34,376 bases of DNA from an uncultured beta proteobacterium (GTDB lineage: Bacteria; Pseudomonadota; Gammaproteobacteria; Burkholderiales; Casimicrobiaceae), in NCBI GenBank assembly GCA_903912485.1, contig CAIWHR010000396.1, positions 1 to 34,376 on the forward strand. Direction: 5' to 3'. Shown one piece after another: positions 8,618-31,308 of this stretch (within the stretch, counting starts at the first letter, position 1; each line of letters opens with the position of its first letter). The notes beneath the pieces are model-generated. The model was not told where the DNA came from, searched no databases, and saw only the letters and a program-made list of their open reading frames with translations. A program made the position numbers and the translations under genes.

Positions 8618-9364
8618 TCAGGGTCGGCAATACCTGTTGCCGGTGGCGTACACGCAGAACGTCTGATGCGATGTCAACGAACCTGCGCCGGCGACGCCCT
8701 GCGGTCCCGTGTCGCCGGTCGGCCCCGTCGCGCCGGTCACCCCGGTCGTGCCCTGCGGTCCTGCACCGCCGGTCGCCCCCGTCGCCCCCGGGAGGCCCTG
8801 AATTCCCTGCGCGCCGGTGGAACCTGTTGCCCCGGTCGCTCCGGTAGCGCCCGTGATGCCCTGAATCCCCTGCGCGCCGGTGGAACCTGTCGCGCCGGTT
8901 GCTCCGGTCGCCCCCGTGACGCCCTGAATCCCCTGGGCGCCGGTGGAACCTGTCGCGCCGGTCGCCCCGGTCGCGCCAGCCGCCCCGGTCGCGCCGGTCG
9001 CACCGGTCGCACCGGTCGCCCCCGGGATGCCCTGAATCCCCTGCGCGCCGGTGGAACCCGCCGCTCCGGCCGCTCCGGTAGCGCCCGTGGCTCCCGCCGG
9101 CACGGCCGTGCACTTGGTCAACTGGCCATTGGCGTCGTGGCAGACGAACGCGCCGTTGGCGGCGGTGCCCGGCAGGCCCGGCACGTGCACTTCGCCGGAA
9201 TCCCTGACCTGAAACTGCGGCGTCCCCCCCGCATTCTTCACGACGAAGGAGCCGCCGCTGTTCGGCGTCACCTCGACGTCCGCCGCGCCCAGGGCGCCGC
9301 CCGTCGCTGCCGCGACCAGGGCCAGCACCAAGGTCGGCATCCGGCGTTGTCGTCTGCTTCTCAT
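8618..9364 (-). CDS. Exported collagen-like (Gly-X-Y) repeat protein
   Basis: From ATG 9364: [27 protein letters not shown] signal peptide, short N-domain, then about 46 uninterrupted G-X-Y triplets ([19 protein letters not shown]...) and a short C-terminal [20 protein letters not shown]. Confidence 0.9.
8690..9090. repeat. Imperfect 63-bp tandem repeat inside the collagen-like gene
   Basis: The CCCTGAAT(T/C)CCCTG motif recurs at 8796, 8859 and 8922 (63-bp spacing) and again at 9030 (108 bp), encoding the 21-aa unit [21 protein letters not shown]. Confidence 0.85.
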
Positions 9365-9699
9365 TGCCTGCTCTCCGTTCGTTCGTCGATTCCGGCCCTG
9401 CGCTCGTCCGTCAACGGCCCCCGCACTGTCGGTCGCGGCCGCGAAGGCGCCCATGTCGTCGCTCCAAGCACTCACCCTTGCGATGAATCTTTCATAACTA
9501 CCACGCGTGCCCGCAGCCGTGCAAGAAGCCGACACTCCGGCAGGATCATGCCTCGAGAAAGCGACGGTTGCCGCGCCCGGCTCAAGGGTGAGTAAAATGC
9601 CTTCTACGGGGCGAAGTGAATCGAAGTGAATTCCACGCCGCCCGGCAGGGGATTTCCGAACCTTGGGATCCCGGGACCCGAATGACGGAGGTGCACCGC

Positions 9700-13834: not shown

Positions 13835-19342
<5,508 letters not shown>

Positions 19343-19345
<3 letters not shown>

Positions 19346-19509
19346 CCACCGGGCAGCGTCCGCGGATCGTCGCGATGACCGCCAACGCCATGCAGGGCGA
19401 CCGCGACATGTGCCTCGCCGCGGGCATGGACGACTATCTGACCAAGCCGATCCGCGTCGAGCGGCTGGTCGAGGCGCTGCATCTGGCGCATCAGCGCGAG
19501 GGCCACTGA
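19343..19509 (+). pseudogene. Out-of-frame C-terminal half of the kinase's final receiver domain
   Basis: In the -1 frame the sequence continues [55 protein letters not shown], exactly the missing beta4-alpha5 part of REC2. Confidence 0.9.
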
Positions 19510-19510
19510 A

Positions 19511-19858
19511 ATGCCGCAACCCGTGATCGATCCCGCCGCGTTCGCACAGCTGCAGGAGACCGCCGGCGCCGAGTTCGTGGTCGAGCTGGTGGATACCTTT
19601 CTCGTCGAGGCGCCGCTGATGCTGGCGGACCTCGAAAGCGCGCTGGCGGTGGGCGACACCGACCGCTTCCGGCGCGCCGCGCATTCGCTGAAGTCCAACG
19701 GCAACACTTTCGGCGCGCTGACGTTGGGCGCGCTGGCGCGGGAACTGGAACTGACCGGCCTCGAACCCGCGCGTCGGGCCGGCGGCGCGACGCTCGCGGC
19801 GCTGGCGCTCGAGTACGCGCGCGTGGCGGCGGCGCTGACGGAATTGCGTCATGCGTGA
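19511..19858 (+). CDS. Histidine phosphotransfer (Hpt) domain protein
   Basis: 115 aa; LVDTFLVEAPLMLADLESALAVGDTDRFRRAAHSLKSNGNTFGALTLGALARELE matches the Hpt AHSLKSxxxxxG motif. Confidence 0.93.
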   Translation: MPQPVIDPAAFAQLQETAGAEFVVELVDTFLVEAPLMLADLESALAVGDTDRFRRAAHSLKSNGNTFGALTLGALARELELTGLEPARRAGGATLAALALEYARVAAALTELRHA

Positions 19859-20894
19859 CGTCCGCCACCGCGCGGCGCGCCTGCTGGTGGTCGACGACAA
19901 CAAGGTCAACCGGCTGCTGCTCGCGCGCAACCTGGAACTGCAGGGCCACTCGGTGGCGTTGGCGGAAAACGGCCGCGTGGCGCTGGAAATGCTTCGCCGC
20001 GAGCGCTTCGACCTGCTGCTGCTGGACATGGAAATGCCCGAGATGGACGGCTTCCAGGTGCTGGAGCAGCTGGTCGGCGACCTGCAGTTGCGCGACCTCC
20101 CGGTCATCGTCACGTCGTCGCTGGAGGGCATCCACAACGTGGTGCGCTGCATCGAGCTCGGGGCCGAGGACTACCTGACCAAGCCGGTCAACCCGGTGCT
20201 GCTGAAGGCGCGCATCGGGGCGAGCCTGGAGAAGAAGTGGCTGCGCGACCAGCAGAAGGACCTGGTGCGCCGCTTTGCCACGCCCGAGGTCGCGCAGCAC
20301 CTGCAGGAATCCGGCTTCGCGCTGGGCGGCACGCGCGTGCGCGCGTCGGTGCTGTTCTCCGACATCCGCGACTTCACGCCGCTGGCCGAATCGCAGCCGC
20401 CCGAGGAGACGATCGAGCTCCTGAACACCTACTACACGCTGATGTTCGACGCCATCAGCGACCACGGCGGCATCGTCAGCATGATGATGGGCGACGGCCT
20501 GATGGCGATCTTCGGCGCGCCGGTGCCGCTGCCCGACCATTGCGCGAGCGCGGCGCGCGCGGCGCTGGAGATGGTGCAGCTGGTGGAGCTGTTCAACGTC
20601 GAACGCGCGGCCGCCGCCAAGCCGCAGATCCGGATCGGCATCGGCATCGCGTCCGGCGAGATGGTCGCCGGCTACACCGGCACCAACGACCGGGCGACCT
20701 ACACCTGCATCGGCAACACCGTCAACCGGGCGGCGCGGCTCGAAGCGCACACCAAGATCGCGTTGCGGACGATCCTGATCGACGACGACACGCGGGCGGG
20801 CCTTTCCGCGGACATCCGATCGGAGGCGCTCGGGAGCCTCGCGCTGAAGGGCATGGTCGCGCCCGTCGACGTGTTCGCGGTGGCCGGCGGCTGA
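19851..20894 (+). CDS. Response regulator with class III nucleotidyl cyclase output
   Basis: 347 aa: [18 protein letters not shown]...LLLLDMEMPEMDGF...DYLTKPVNP, then cyclase ASVLFSDIRDFTPLAE...SMMMGDGLMAIFGAP...TYTCIGNTVNRAARLEAHTK. Start overlaps hpt by 8 bp. Confidence 0.94.
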   Translation: MRDVRHRAARLLVVDDNKVNRLLLARNLELQGHSVALAENGRVALEMLRRERFDLLLLDMEMPEMDGFQVLEQLVGDLQLRDLPVIVTSSLEGIHNVVRCIELGAEDYLTKPVNPVLLKARIGASLEKKWLRDQQKDLVRRFATPEVAQHLQESGFALGGTRVRASVLFSDIRDFTPLAESQPPEETIELLNTYYTLMFDAISDHGGIVSMMMGDGLMAIFGAPVPLPDHCASAARAALEMVQLVELFNVERAAAAKPQIRIGIGIASGEMVAGYTGTNDRATYTCIGNTVNRAARLEAHTKIALRTILIDDDTRAGLSADIRSEALGSLALKGMVAPVDVFAVAGG

Positions 20895-20921: not shown

Positions 20922-22742
20922 CTAGCTCTTGGCGCGGTCCGCCAGCGCCACCGCTTCGCGAAAGAAGCGCTCGAACTCGCGCACGACCTGCGGATCCTCG
21001 AACAGCGCGCCGCTGCGACGCCGGATTTCCTCGCTGACGGCGCGGCGGTGCACGCCGTCGGTGCCGAGGCGGACGGCACGCGCGATGTAGTCGGCGGCGT
21101 CGGCGGCGATGCCTTCGGTCATGCCCATCTTGCGATACATCGCCTGCGTGTGGCGGCCGCGCTGGAATTCCCCCGGCAGCGTCACGATCGGCACGCCGAC
21201 GGAGATCGCTTCCAGCGAGGTGTTCATGCCGTTGAAGTGCACCGTGTCGAGCATGACGTCGGCGATCGCGATCAGGTTGAGGTAGTCCTGCGGGGCCTGG
21301 CGCGGCAGGAAGACGATGCGGTCCGCGACGTCCGGCATCGCTGCCGCCCAGCGTGCGCGCATCAGGTCGGTCCAGTGCCCGATCCGGCCCTCGATCACGA
21401 CCAGCCTGCCCTGGACGTCGCGGCGCAGGATGCCGGCGATGAGTTCGTCCATGTCGGGGTGGAACTTGAACAGGTTCTGCGGGCAGATGTAGAGGTGATC
21501 GACGTCGCGCAGCCCGAAGTCGGCGCGGCGCTTGGCCGGCTGCGGCAATTGGGGGCGATCGTAGTAGGCCAGCGTGCCCAGATCGCGGAGCAGGAACAGC
21601 CGCTCGCTGTAGTGCGCGGCCGCCCCCGGCAGCTCGTAGAGGTCGTTCGAGACGAAGTAGTCCATCGTCGGAATGCCGGTGGTGTCGGGGTGCCCGTACG
21701 ACACGCACTGCACCGGCGCGAGACGCGAAAAGGCGAGGAAGTAGGTGAACGGCTCCATGCCGATGTCCTGGTAGAACAGCACGTCGAGCTTCAGGTCGCC
21801 GATCAGGCGCCTCGCCTGTGCCAGGTCCTGCGGGACCACCAGACTGTGCTCGGCGCGTTCGCGGATGAAGCGCGAGTACGCGTCGTCGACGACCGGCGCG
21901 ACGAAGATCGCGGTGACCTCGAAATCGGCGCGCGCGAGCTGGGCGAACAGGCCGCGGCTGGTGCGCCCGATGCTGTGCTCGCAGAAGAACTTCGACAGCA
22001 GGCCGACGCGGATCCGCGCGCCCGCCGGCCGCGGCTGTCCGCAGTGCGGCGCGACGTGATCGAGCGCCGGGCAGACGCGGCGATAGAGCGTCGCGTACCT
22101 GACCTGCAGCGCGCGATCGTCGGCGCCGTGAAACGCGAGGTAGAAGTTCGACCACAGCGCCGCCTGCATCGGGTCGTCGACGTGGAGCGTCGGGTCCGCG
22201 AGCAGCGCGTCGAGCTCGGCCTCGAGGCGGGCGCGTTCGGCGGTGAGCGCCTCGCGCGATCGCATCAGCGGCGACACCAGCGTCGCGAGCCGGATCCGCG
22301 TGCCGGCGCCGGGTGCCAGCCGGTACGCGCGCCGGTAGCAGTCGGCCGCGGCGTCGATGTCGCCCAGCGCCTGCCGGGCGATGCCGAGGCGTTCCCAGCC
22401 GACGCTGTCGTGCGGGCGCAGGTCGCAGGCAAGCTGGTATTGCTCCGCCGCCTGCCCGATGCGCCCCTGGTCCTGCAGGGCGCCGGCGTACTGATCGCGG
22501 CACTCCGGCGCGTCCGGTGCGAGTTCGACCGCGCGCGCCAGCATCCGGATCGCGGCATCGACCATGCCGACCTGTCGCGCCAGCGTGCCGAGGCCCAGCC
22601 AGGCTGCGGGCAGCGCCGGCGCCACGGCCAGCGTCTCCTGGTACAGCGCCTTGGCTTCGGCGAGGCGGTTCGCACGGTGCATCGCCTGCGCCTGCTGCAG
22701 CAGCGCATCGCTCCCGGCCGTCCTGCGCTTCTTCTCCCCCAC
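20922..22742 (-). CDS. TPR protein with GT41 (SPINDLY / O-GlcNAc transferase-like) glycosyltransferase domain
   Basis: 606 aa; N-terminal TPRs, then IRVGLLSKFFCEHSIGRTSRGLFAQL...VQCVSYGHPDTTGIPTMDYFVSND...YICPQNLFKFHPDMDELIAGIL...DVMLDTVHFNGMNTSLEAISVGVPIVTLPGEFQRGRHT. Confidence 0.9.
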   Translation of the reverse strand: MGEKKRRTAGSDALLQQAQAMHRANRLAEAKALYQETLAVAPALPAAWLGLGTLARQVGMVDAAIRMLARAVELAPDAPECRDQYAGALQDQGRIGQAAEQYQLACDLRPHDSVGWERLGIARQALGDIDAAADCYRRAYRLAPGAGTRIRLATLVSPLMRSREALTAERARLEAELDALLADPTLHVDDPMQAALWSNFYLAFHGADDRALQVRYATLYRRVCPALDHVAPHCGQPRPAGARIRVGLLSKFFCEHSIGRTSRGLFAQLARADFEVTAIFVAPVVDDAYSRFIRERAEHSLVVPQDLAQARRLIGDLKLDVLFYQDIGMEPFTYFLAFSRLAPVQCVSYGHPDTTGIPTMDYFVSNDLYELPGAAAHYSERLFLLRDLGTLAYYDRPQLPQPAKRRADFGLRDVDHLYICPQNLFKFHPDMDELIAGILRRDVQGRLVVIEGRIGHWTDLMRARWAAAMPDVADRIVFLPRQAPQDYLNLIAIADVMLDTVHFNGMNTSLEAISVGVPIVTLPGEFQRGRHTQAMYRKMGMTEGIAADAADYIARAVRLGTDGVHRRAVSEEIRRRSGALFEDPQVVREFERFFREAVALADRAKS

Positions 22743-22822
22743 GCTGGCCTCCCTGCGCTACGCCTGCCGGCGCCACCCGAGAACGCCGGCGGCCGCGGCC
22801 GCCGGGCGCCGGCGGCGGACGT

Positions 22823-23575
22823 TCAGGTCCACCGGATGAAGTGATGCCGAATCTGCGGCAGCGGCCGGCCGTCCTCGGCAGAGGCGCCGGATCGCGTCTC
22901 GACCGTCTCGAACCGGAGGCTCGACAGGCCGTCGGCGAGATGCCGGTCGGCCGGGCCCGTGGCCTTTTCCTCGAACAGCGCCGCGGTGGCGCGGGCTTCG
23001 TCGGTCAGGCCGCCGTCGGTCCGGAAGCCGCGATGCTCGTGCGGCAGCGGCTGGTAGGTTCCGTCGCGATGGTCGATCGCAAGCCCCGCGCGCAGGCACC
23101 GCCGGTGCAGGTCGGTGTCCTCGAAGCCCCATCCCCAGTAGTCGTTGCTGAATCCGTTCACGCGCTCGAAGTCGGCGCAGTTGAACGCCGTCACCGCACC
23201 GAAAAACTGGTCGTAATTCTCCCGCAGCGCGAGGCCGTACCAGATCAGGCGGGTCGGGCGCCGGACGTACGAGTAGTCGGCCCAGATCGGCAGGTAGTCG
23301 ACGTCGTGGAAGGCGACGTAATCCGCGTCCGGACGCGCCAGCCGGAAGCCGGCGTTGTTGAGCCGCCCGCGGTTGAAGCGCTCGGTGCCGAGCTGCTCGA
23401 CGACGTGAATCGTGTAGCGGAGGTGGCGGTCGAGCTTGTCGCGCCTGAAATAGGCCTCCATGTGCGGCAGGAAGCGCGCGAGATGCGCGGCGCGATCGCG
23501 GTACGGGACGATGATCGCAAGCGACTTGCTGTAGGCGGCCGGCTGGTAGGGCCAGTCGGTGAGCGGGGCATCCAC
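22823..23575 (-). CDS. GT7 family (beta-1,4-galactosyltransferase-like) glycosyltransferase, proposed GTG start
   Basis: SLAIIVPYRDRAAHLARFLPHMEAYF...YTIHVVEQLGTERFNRGRLNNAGFRLARPDADYVAFHDVDYLPIWADYSY...YDQFFGAVTAFNCADFERVNGFSNDYWGWGFEDTDLHRRCLRAGL carries beta4GalT hallmarks (VVEQ, FNR, HDVD, NGFSNxYWGWGxED). Confidence 0.9.
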   Translation of the reverse strand: MDAPLTDWPYQPAAYSKSLAIIVPYRDRAAHLARFLPHMEAYFRRDKLDRHLRYTIHVVEQLGTERFNRGRLNNAGFRLARPDADYVAFHDVDYLPIWADYSYVRRPTRLIWYGLALRENYDQFFGAVTAFNCADFERVNGFSNDYWGWGFEDTDLHRRCLRAGLAIDHRDGTYQPLPHEHRGFRTDGGLTDEARATAALFEEKATGPADRHLADGLSSLRFETVETRSGASAEDGRPLPQIRHHFIRWT

Positions 23576-23581
23576 CGCGCA

Positions 23582-23611
23582 ATTATAGTCGGCGAACGGG
23601 CAGCGTTCGCC
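23582..23611 (-). promoter_or_regulatory. Candidate promoter/operator of the GT7 gene (TATAAT plus GGCGAAC-N7-GTTCGCC)
   Basis: Minus-strand TATAAT at 23582-23587, 6 nt before the proposed GTG; perfect 7-bp inverted repeat 23591-23597 / 23605-23611 directly upstream. Confidence 0.5.
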
Positions 23612-23702
23612 GCCGCCGCCGGCCGCCGCGATGCGCGCGTCGTGATCCCCCGCGCGAATTCGCACAGGACTGCCCGGCAGCGCACTAGAATGGCAGCCTG
23701 TG

Positions 23703-24620
23703 ATGAGTACGCTGCGATCTCCCGGGCACGTCCCGCTCTCCGCGGTGCTTCTGGTCGTCAGCGCGGTCGCCTGTTTCGCGACGTCCGACGCCATCGTCAA
23801 GTTTCTGACGCAGCGCTATCCGGTGCCGCTGCTGGTGTTCACGCGCTTCGGGCTGCAGGCGCTGGCAACGTTCGTCTGGCTCGCGCCGACGTTGCGCTGG
23901 GGCCTGTGGCGGACGCCGCAGCGGGGACTGCAGATACTCCGCGGCACGGTGCTGTTGGGGTCGTCGCTGTGCTTCGTCAACGCGCTGCACTGGCTGCCGC
24001 TGGCCGACGCGACGGCGATCAATTTCACGACGCCGATCCTGGTCGTCCTGCTGTCGGTCGGGCTGCTGAAGGAGCGGATGACGCGATCGCGCTGGGCGTT
24101 CGTCGCCGTCGGCTTCGCGGGCATGCTGCTGATCGTGCGGCCGGGAGCGTCGATCCTGCACGGCGCCGCGCTGCTCGCCCTGGGTTCGGCCGGCTTCTAT
24201 GCGGCCTTCCAGATCCTGACGCGCAAGCTGCGTGCCGCCGATCCCCGCGTGACGCTGTTCTACTCGGGGCTCTGCGGCACCGTGCTGATGACGCTGCTGC
24301 TGCCGTTTCTCGATTACCGCGCGGACATGCCGTGGGCGCATGTCGCGCTGGTGGTGACGTTCGGTGCGGTGGCGACGTTCGGCCATTTCCTGTTCATCCT
24401 CGCGTTCCGTCACGCGCCGGCGTCGGCGCTGACGCCGTTCACGTACGTTCAGCTCATGTGGGCGGTGGTGCTGGGCTGGCTCGTCTATGGATACTTTCCG
24501 GACGGCTACTCACTGACCGGCATCGCGGTCATCGCCGCCAGCGGCCTGCTGCTCGCGTGGCACGAGCGTCGGCGCGGGCAGGGCGCGGTCGCCACCGGCG
24601 AGCCGCCGGCAGTGGACTGA
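23703..24620 (+). CDS. EamA/DMT family transporter
   Basis: 305 aa, about 10 hydrophobic helices; MSTLRSPGHVPLSAVLLVVSAVACFATSDAIVKFLTQRYPVPLLVFTRFG...ALHWLPLADATAINFTTPILVVLLSVGLLKERM typical of EamA. Confidence 0.93.
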   Translation: MSTLRSPGHVPLSAVLLVVSAVACFATSDAIVKFLTQRYPVPLLVFTRFGLQALATFVWLAPTLRWGLWRTPQRGLQILRGTVLLGSSLCFVNALHWLPLADATAINFTTPILVVLLSVGLLKERMTRSRWAFVAVGFAGMLLIVRPGASILHGAALLALGSAGFYAAFQILTRKLRAADPRVTLFYSGLCGTVLMTLLLPFLDYRADMPWAHVALVVTFGAVATFGHFLFILAFRHAPASALTPFTYVQLMWAVVLGWLVYGYFPDGYSLTGIAVIAASGLLLAWHERRRGQGAVATGEPPAVD

Positions 24621-29794: not shown

Positions 29795-30759
29795 CCGCGA
29801 TCTGTCGCTGGCTGGCGTTGCTGCCGCTGCTCGTCGCCGGCGCATGGTCGGCGCCGCTGCGCGCCGCCGACGTGCCCTACCTCAGCGGCCGCGTCGTCGA
29901 TCACGCCGAGATCCTTTCGCCGGCGACGCGCGAACGGCTCACCGCGGCGCTGAAGGCGCACGAGGACGCGACCGGCGACCAGGTCGCGGTGCTCACCGTT
30001 CCGACGATAGGCGGCGAGGGCATCGAGGCCTACGCGACCCGGGTGTTCGAGAGCTGGAAGCTGGGCCGGAACGGCAAGGACAACGGCGTGCTGGTGGTGG
30101 TCGTGCCGCAGGACCGCAAGATGCGCATCGAGGTCGGCTACGGGCTCGAAGGCACGCTCACCGACGTCGCCAGCAGCCGCATCATCCGCAACGTGATGAC
30201 GCCGCAGTTCAAGGACGGCAACTACGACCGGGGCATCGCCGACGGGGTGCTGGCGGTGATCGCGCAGCTCGAGGGCAAGCCGGGAGTCGCCGACGCGACG
30301 CCCGCGGCAGCCGGCACGGGAAGCGGCGCGACGTCGATCACCATCGACACGCCCGACATGCCGTGGCCGATGCGCATCCTGCTGGGGGCATTCATCTTCG
30401 GGATCATCGGCCTGTTCACGTTCATCGGCATCATGACGCCGGGCGTGGGCTGGTTCCTCTACGTTTTCCTGATCCCGTTCTGGGCGATGTTTCCGCTGAT
30501 GATCATCGGCATGAACGCGACCGTCGCCGTCTTCGTCGTCTACGTCGTCGGCTATCCGATCGCCAAGCTGCTGCTGGCGCGCAGCGCGTGGTACCGGAAG
30601 GCGGCGCAGGATCTCAGGACCAAGGGGCGCGCGACCATCGGCGGCTTCACGATGACGAGTTCGGGCGGGTCGTCCGGGTCTTCGTCGTCGGGCGGCGGCG
30701 GCGGTTTCTCGGGCGGCGGCGGCAGTTCCGGCGGCGGCGGCGCGTCGGGGAGCTGGTGA
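29791..30759 (+). CDS. TPM-domain (YgcG family) protein with Gly/Ser-rich C-terminus
   Basis: Signal peptide then VPYLSGRVVDHAEILSPATRERLTAALKAHEDATGDQVAVLTVPTIGGEGIEAYATRVFESWKLGRNGKDNGVLVVVVPQDRKMRIEVGYGLEGTLTD..., ends GGGGGFSGGGGSSGGGGASGSW. ATGA overlap with preceding gene. Confidence 0.93.
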   Translation: MTAICRWLALLPLLVAGAWSAPLRAADVPYLSGRVVDHAEILSPATRERLTAALKAHEDATGDQVAVLTVPTIGGEGIEAYATRVFESWKLGRNGKDNGVLVVVVPQDRKMRIEVGYGLEGTLTDVASSRIIRNVMTPQFKDGNYDRGIADGVLAVIAQLEGKPGVADATPAAAGTGSGATSITIDTPDMPWPMRILLGAFIFGIIGLFTFIGIMTPGVGWFLYVFLIPFWAMFPLMIIGMNATVAVFVVYVVGYPIAKLLLARSAWYRKAAQDLRTKGRATIGGFTMTSSGGSSGSSSSGGGGGFSGGGGSSGGGGASGSW

Positions 30760-30769
30760 TTGCAACCTC

Positions 30770-31244
30770 GTAGCCCGGGTTCCGCGTCCAGGTAGGCCCG
30801 ACGCGAGCCTCGCGCGCGTCCGGCGGAACCCGGGTTGCGCGGCCACGACGAGCGCCGTAGCCCGGGTTCCGCGTCCAGGTAGGCCCGACGCGAGCCTCCC
30901 GCGCGTCCGGGCGGAACCCGGGTTGCGCGGCCACGACGAGCGCCGTAGCCCGGGTTCCGCGGCCACGACGAGCGCCGTAGCCCGGGTTCCGCGGCCACGA
31001 CGAGCGCCGTAGCCGGATGCGCCGCGCCGCGCAACCCGGGGGGGTGCGCCCAACGAAGCGCCGGCCCCGGGTTTCGCGCTTCAACCGCAGGGGCCGACGT
31101 CGGGCGCGGGCGGGCGCGAAGCCCCGGGCTTCGCGCTTCAAGGACAGGGGCCACGTCGGGCGCGGGCGGGCGCGAAGCCCCGGGCTTCGCGCTTCAGGGA
31201 CAGGGGCCGACGTCGGGCGCGGGCGGGCGCGAAGCCCGGGCTAC
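30770..31244. repeat. Compound intergenic repeat array bounded by GTAGCCCGGG ... CCCGGGCTAC
   Basis: GTAGCC(C)GG heads at 30770, 30857, 30945, 30977, 31009 (spacings 87, 88, 32, 32), followed by three units of about 57 bp beginning CCCCGGG at 31065, 31122, 31178; closes with CCCGGGCTAC at 31235-31244. Confidence 0.9.
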
Positions 31245-31308
31245 GTTTCAACCGCAGGAGATGACGCGGGGGGCCGCGGTGTCCCGGGCGCGAGGGCTCA
31301 AGCCCGGA

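Follow-up and report, generated by a model that had tools for sequence, protein, structure and literature searches.

A TPR-GT41 gene beside a B4GALT-fold GT7 gene in a beta proteobacterium: a recurrent pair and candidate two-step glycosylation module

Introduction

GT7 and GT41, the families to which the animal enzymes of milk-sugar synthesis and protein sugar-tagging belong, are encoded by neighbouring genes in an uncultured beta proteobacterium of the Casimicrobiaceae (GenBank assembly GCA_903912485.1, contig CAIWHR010000396.1). Do the two enzymes act in sequence on one acceptor, or do their genes simply lie side by side? An earlier note on the 34,376-nucleotide stretch that we analysed, here called the window, had suggested that the pair could build a protein-linked sugar by sequential addition. 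Natural cytosolic GT41 glycosylation with an elongating partner is represented by very few systems. The one we found is the ngt-agt operon of Actinobacillus pleuropneumoniae, in which a GT41 NGT is encoded with an elongating alpha-1,6-glucosyltransferase (PMC5303269). Searches of the open-licence literature gave no account of GT41 paired with GT7.

Results

The pair lies between two conserved gene blocks

Both genes are on the minus strand, the GT7 gene (22823..23575, 250 aa, GTG start) ahead of the TPR-GT41 gene (20922..22742, 606 aa, GTG start). Read from the sequence, the gap between them (22743..22822) is exactly 80 bp, as the earlier note had stated, and it contains a ribosome-binding-like site, AGGGAGG, 5 nt ahead of the GT41 GTG. 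The GT41 gene is convergent with a plus-strand response regulator-adenylate/guanylate cyclase gene (19851..20894, PF00072 and PF00211), the last of a histidine-kinase cassette. The GT7 gene is divergent from a plus-strand EamA transporter gene (23700..24620, PF00892), the first of a conserved EamA-NAD dehydrogenase-HisN-BirA-CoaX cluster. Since both flanking genes lie outside the pair and bound it in this way, the pair would form a two-gene transcription unit. A promoter scan scored no full sigma-70 site for it. The intergenic region between GT7 and EamA (23576..23699, read from the sequence) has a TATAAT 6 nt ahead of the GT7 GTG, which could indicate a leaderless start. The GT7 start is uncertain because no stop interrupts the frame upstream as far as 23800; the N-termini of relatives agree with the GTG at 23575. 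GC and third-position GC of both genes (GC3 90% and 93%) equal those of neighbouring genes. We found one GT7 copy in the source genome and about eight GT41 copies (14 PF13844 stretches).

The histidine-kinase cassette (13835-20894, plus strand) encodes a TPR-multi-GAF hybrid histidine kinase, an Hpt-like protein and the response-regulator/cyclase, and is conserved as one unit in several genomes of the family. Elsewhere in the window, minus-strand frames between genes at ~30750-31250 have recurring 'RRSSWPRNPG'-like units, a pattern that suggests a short tandem or dispersed DNA repeat. An exported-looking protein with long GAT/GPQ-type collagen-like repeats is encoded at 8618-9535 (minus strand), ~12 kb from the pair with unrelated genes between. 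The earlier note had named it as a possible substrate; it is unlinked to the pair and nothing supports that role. No substrate or acceptor gene linked to the pair was found in the window, nor was there a flagellin gene nearby.

The GT7 protein has the motifs and fold of B4GALT enzymes

The product of the first gene combines the N- and C-terminal GT7 Pfam domains (PF13733, 67.3 bits, cut-off 27; PF02709, 67.9 bits, cut-off 23) with the DxD, GWGxED and metal-ligand His motifs and a B4GALT fold. The top match in a PDB sequence search was Drosophila B4GALT7 (7.7e-29), followed by B4GALT1, and the AlphaFold2 model (pLDDT 87) matched B4GALT1 and B4GALT7 in Foldseek (4.5e-19, TM 0.72-0.78). For both enzymes of the pair, statements on motifs rest on alignments and the models were used for fold matching. 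All the B4GALT-type motifs that had been quoted for this gene are present, among them HDVD (90-93), WGWGFED (147-153) and H179/H181. HDVD and ED are invariant in 16 aligned sequences and H179 is nearly so; H181, found in 5/7 close sequences, gives an HxH arrangement aligned with B4GALT7. Phe124 occupies the site of the B4GALT1 donor-gate tyrosine, which we take to be bovine position 289, and Drosophila B4GALT7 also has Phe there in the PDB-match alignment. Alike in fold, HDVD and GWGxED motif, the window GT7 differs from animal B4GALT7 and B4GALT1 in being bacterial, only 26-28% identical and without a membrane anchor: the catalytic domain starts ~16 residues after the N-terminus, and no signal peptide or transmembrane segment is apparent in the sequence. 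It matched no NCBIfam or PHROG family and no phage record.

GT7 relatives are also encoded by 283/461 pattern-matched stretches of IMG/VR viral contigs (L055-L134), and the 80 kept are 35-49% identical. One viral type has frames of ~470-490 aa resembling two tandem GT7 domains. Another, on contigs of 4-10 kb, has frames that lack an upstream start, as if post-intron, and is possibly eukaryotic or large-virus DNA. No GT41 gene was found within the stretch around each of the 80 viral GT7 loci.

The GT41 protein belongs to a divergent TPR-GT41 clade

The second gene product scored 72.7 bits against PF13844 (cut-off 25) and has about four TPR units (~residues 10-145) ahead of a catalytic GT-B region (~236-606). 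Its AlphaFold2 model (pLDDT 94) matched human OGT (1e-29), XcOGT of Xanthomonas campestris (TM 0.65-0.76) and SPINDLY in Foldseek. As the catalytic signature of GT41 enzymes we took the active-site His and the essential Lys (XcOGT H218/K388, SPY H495/K665). H256 aligns with XcOGT H218 and K426 with XcOGT K388, and position 426 is K or R in 20/20 aligned sequences. The ApNGT equivalent of K426 is presumably K441. Both SPY (PMC9715652) and ApNGT (PMC5303269) require this Lys. TPR and GT-B regions, active-site His and essential Lys are thus common to the window GT41 and to XcOGT, Thermobaculum OGT, human OGT and plant SPINDLY. The family calls of the earlier note, GT7 and TPR-GT41, were therefore correct, with Pfam scores above the curated cut-offs; the catalytic motifs of both enzymes are intact in the alignments, and the models fold like B4GALT1/7 and OGT/XcOGT.

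The donor site sets the window GT41 apart from these relatives. An OGT proper would have an HTT motif and a small donor-gate residue, whereas here the HTT position reads M506-N507-T508, E511 replaces an Asp and F503 stands at the gate. The gate residue, which is Cys917 in human OGT, Tyr in SPY, XcOGT and TtOGT and Phe517 in HMW1C, has been proposed to set donor size (PMC9715652). With a Phe gate and the HTT motif absent, one would not expect UDP-GlcNAc to be the donor, and the label 'OGT-like' that the gene had been given is too specific. Nor does the protein fit the NGT/HMW1C group: it scored 68.7-70.9 bits against a cut-off of 1000 with NF049992, the NCBIfam equivalog model of NGT/HMW1C, UDP-Glc:protein N-glucosyltransferase, and it has TPRs and not the AAD. 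Its catalytic domain scores almost alike with the GT41 Pfam model (74.6 bits) and the NGT model (70.9 bits); the values for the Azospirillum GT41 described below are 298 and 31 bits. The profile of the window GT41 clade favours OGT-type over NGT structures. By sequence, we assign the window enzyme to a divergent TPR-GT41 clade, outside both OGT proper and NGT proper.

The pairing is absent from close relatives and recurs in other lineages

GT7 is present in 6/149 related genomes, the source genome included, and GT41 in 78/149, often in several copies, so that the description of the two families as best known from eukaryotes holds for their fame and not for the occurrence of GT41. Adjacency is not kept within the family: in the stretch examined around each GT7, 0/5 other family genomes with the gene have a GT41 beside it. 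GT7 comes immediately after recN in four sister-genus genomes and close to dapF in the same-genus G003. Nor is there a GT7 near the closest GT41 relatives (68%, 49%, 42% and 41% identical); none adjoins the GT41 of the nearest, G035 at 68%. The kinase-cyclase cassette and the EamA-BirA-CoaX cluster are each conserved in relatives, next to other genes and without the pair, which places the pair at a genome-specific junction. A scan of genome contigs with the single GT7 sequence as query found only one relative.

Outside the family, GT7 and GT41 adjoin in three further lineages, each time on the same strand and with a 4-bp ATGA overlap in place of the 80-bp gap. The alphaproteobacterium G1146 has GT7 then GT41, the order of the window, and its GT7 is 54% identical to that of the window. 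Another alphaproteobacterium, G1212, has GT41 then GT7. Azospirillum also has GT41 then GT7, in seven plasmid records (L178 and six more), where a GT10 fucosyltransferase gene (PF18025, PF00852) and a gene for a protein without Pfam match that carries a WLWKPW motif lie ahead of the unit. This four-gene cluster (L178:5778-10771, NZ_CP012915.1) is complete in 7/7 records, and the GT41/GT7 region is unannotated in the plasmid collection records. The donor-gate residue is Phe, Tyr, His or Cys across the four paired GT41s, and the pairs may accordingly start with different sugars. We had read the pair as not conserved and hence due to chance; the Azospirillum, G1146 and G1212 pairs overturned that reading.

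The other 17/21 GT7 loci, among them all five others of the window's own family, have no adjoining GT41. Most stand alone amid housekeeping genes such as recN. A GT41 is not a prerequisite for GT7, which can have other targets: in three of the genomes that carry it (G651, G819 and G1029) no GT41 match was found. The GT7 gene of G651 (L054:4741-13960) lies by coaD-like, heptosyltransferase (GT9), GT2, GT4, epimerase-like and UDP-galactopyranose mutase genes, a locus that looks LPS-core-like. A TPR protein with a weak GT9-like glycosyltransferase domain is encoded 71 bp from the GT7 gene of G1030, in divergent orientation. A weakly GT10-like gene directly precedes GT7 in G157 (L053:7723-9265), not far upstream of a flagellar flg cluster. 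At L190:7899-10494 and L191:9262-11067, GT7 adjoins a conserved gene whose ~275-aa product has 'AGRTGTAW' at its N-terminus, looks sulfotransferase-like by eye and has no Pfam match; GT7 is tandemly duplicated in L190.

Phylogenies indicate about four origins of the pair

The label 'paired' changed four times on the GT7 tree (28 rows), at least three of the changes being forced by strongly supported branches, and four times on the GT41 catalytic-domain tree (35 rows), all four being forced. On the latter, the paired GT41s fall in at least three deep clades, each amid unpaired GT41s. Since both trees separate the pairs, the adjacency arose about four times. The 4/21 paired GT7 loci compare with ~0.08 expected by chance (Poisson P ~1.5e-6), an expectation that uses approximate GT41 copy numbers and ignores the general clustering of glycosylation genes; if glycosyltransferase genes cluster tenfold over random, P = 9e-3. 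We take repeated independent adjacency, in three cases with translational-coupling overlaps, as a good argument for joint function that falls short of proof. The functional pair that had been proposed is thus favoured by adjacency in at least three other lineages, independent by both trees and with ATGA overlaps, and disfavoured by its absence from the five family genomes with GT7.

Discussion

Gene order, the integrity of the motifs, the folds and the repeated, independent pairing are what we observed; from them we infer, as the leading explanation, a module in which both enzymes are active and share an acceptor that is a protein. The TPR-GT41 would add the first sugar in the cytosol and GT7 would extend it, a proposal for which we judge the case evenly balanced. 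The two genes would then be a small operon for sequential protein glycosylation. Client proteins may be held in the TPR groove of GT41, which would use a nucleotide sugar to put the first monosaccharide on a side chain. Because of the bulky Phe in the donor gate, the donor is predicted to have no 2-N-acetyl group and may be glucose-like or fucose-like. GT7, metal-dependent and inverting, would then add a beta-linked hexose onto that sugar, most likely a 1,4-linked galactose.

The closest natural system is ngt-agt. There, as in the window, a GT41 gene adjoins a second glycosyltransferase gene on the same strand; the cytosolic GT41 starts the protein-linked sugar and the neighbouring enzyme elongates it, as is predicted for the window pair. 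It differs in that the NGT has the AAD domain and not TPRs, and that the elongating enzyme is a polymerising alpha-glucosyltransferase and not a GT7 (PMC5303269).

In chemistry, GlycoPRIME comes closest: priming, beta-1,4-galactosyl extension and fucosylation are the steps suggested by the Azospirillum GT10-x-GT41-GT7 cluster. GlycoPRIME is engineered, with enzymes from unrelated organisms, and its galactosyltransferase LgtB belongs to GT25, not GT7. Combining ApNGT, the beta-4-galactosyltransferase NmLgtB and the fucosyltransferase HpFutA, it yielded N-linked (fucosyl)lactose, which shows that a beta-1,4-galactosyltransferase can act on a sugar attached by a GT41 and that fucose can follow; bovine B4GALT1, a GT7 enzyme, was tried as an alternative and not adopted (PMC6881289). 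The flagellin glycosylation islands of Enterobacteriaceae resemble the window in having a bacterial GT41, there of SPINDLY type and within a protein-modification cluster; glycosyltransferase families were reported to be mutually exclusive in them, with no mention of a GT7 (PMC4875605). The polar flagellin of A. brasilense is a glycoprotein whose reported repeat glycan resembles O-antigen (PMC3958885), and this glycan is not obviously the product of the Azospirillum cluster.

Three other explanations have to be set against sequential protein glycosylation. The most serious, which we still hold to be rather unlikely, is that GT7 is an independent beta-galactosyl- or GalNAc-transferase for a surface glycan (LPS core or exopolysaccharide), and that its adjacency to GT41 is incidental or reflects a loose clustering of glycosylation genes. 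It stays alive through the GT7 genomes without GT41 and through G651, where GT7 is beside GT4, GT2 and GT9 heptosyltransferase genes and near one for UDP-galactopyranose mutase; the solitary GT7 genes in housekeeping surroundings agree with it. The G651 GT7, however, is a long-branch relative, 31% identical, and three independent ATGA-overlapping couples together with the window pair exceed random adjacency. That only the window pair is a product of chance, two unrelated glycosyltransferase genes having been inserted at a variable junction of conserved blocks while the other pairs are functional, seems to us the least probable explanation. The genome-specific junction and the 80-bp gap, where the other three pairs overlap, would fit it. 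Against it, strand and order are those of G1146, with its 54% identical GT7, the ribosome-binding site is good and codon composition is normal.

The third explanation retains the sequence of GT41 and GT7 and replaces the protein by a small molecule, glycolipid or polysaccharide. It gains from the remoteness of the window GT41 clade from characterised members, with its near-equal scores for the GT41 and NGT models, and we know of no substrate for most bacterial TPR-GT41 paralogues. OGT, SPY and HMW1C/NGT, on the other hand, act on polypeptides (PMC9715652, PMC3983070), and the window GT41 has a TPR region. We consider a non-protein acceptor improbable.

A protein-directed GT41-GT7 module may be part of something wider, which we put forward tentatively and think doubtful as a whole: a natural pathway, evolved repeatedly, that starts with a cytosolic TPR-GT41 placing one sugar on proteins; GT7 would cap this sugar with beta-galactose and, in Azospirillum, a GT10 fucosyltransferase would extend it. 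Working stepwise in the bacterial cytosol and without a lipid carrier, such a pathway would yield an animal-like protein glycan of (fucosyl)lactose or Lewis type. If the proposal is true, the recurrent couple would add a beta-galactosyl-type version to cytosolic GT41 glycosylation, give many orphan bacterial TPR-GT41 genes a concrete partner and a testable acceptor, and supply natural enzymes with which bacteria could be made to produce defined glycoproteins. Azospirillum brasilense is a cultivated model that carries the GT41-GT7 couple.
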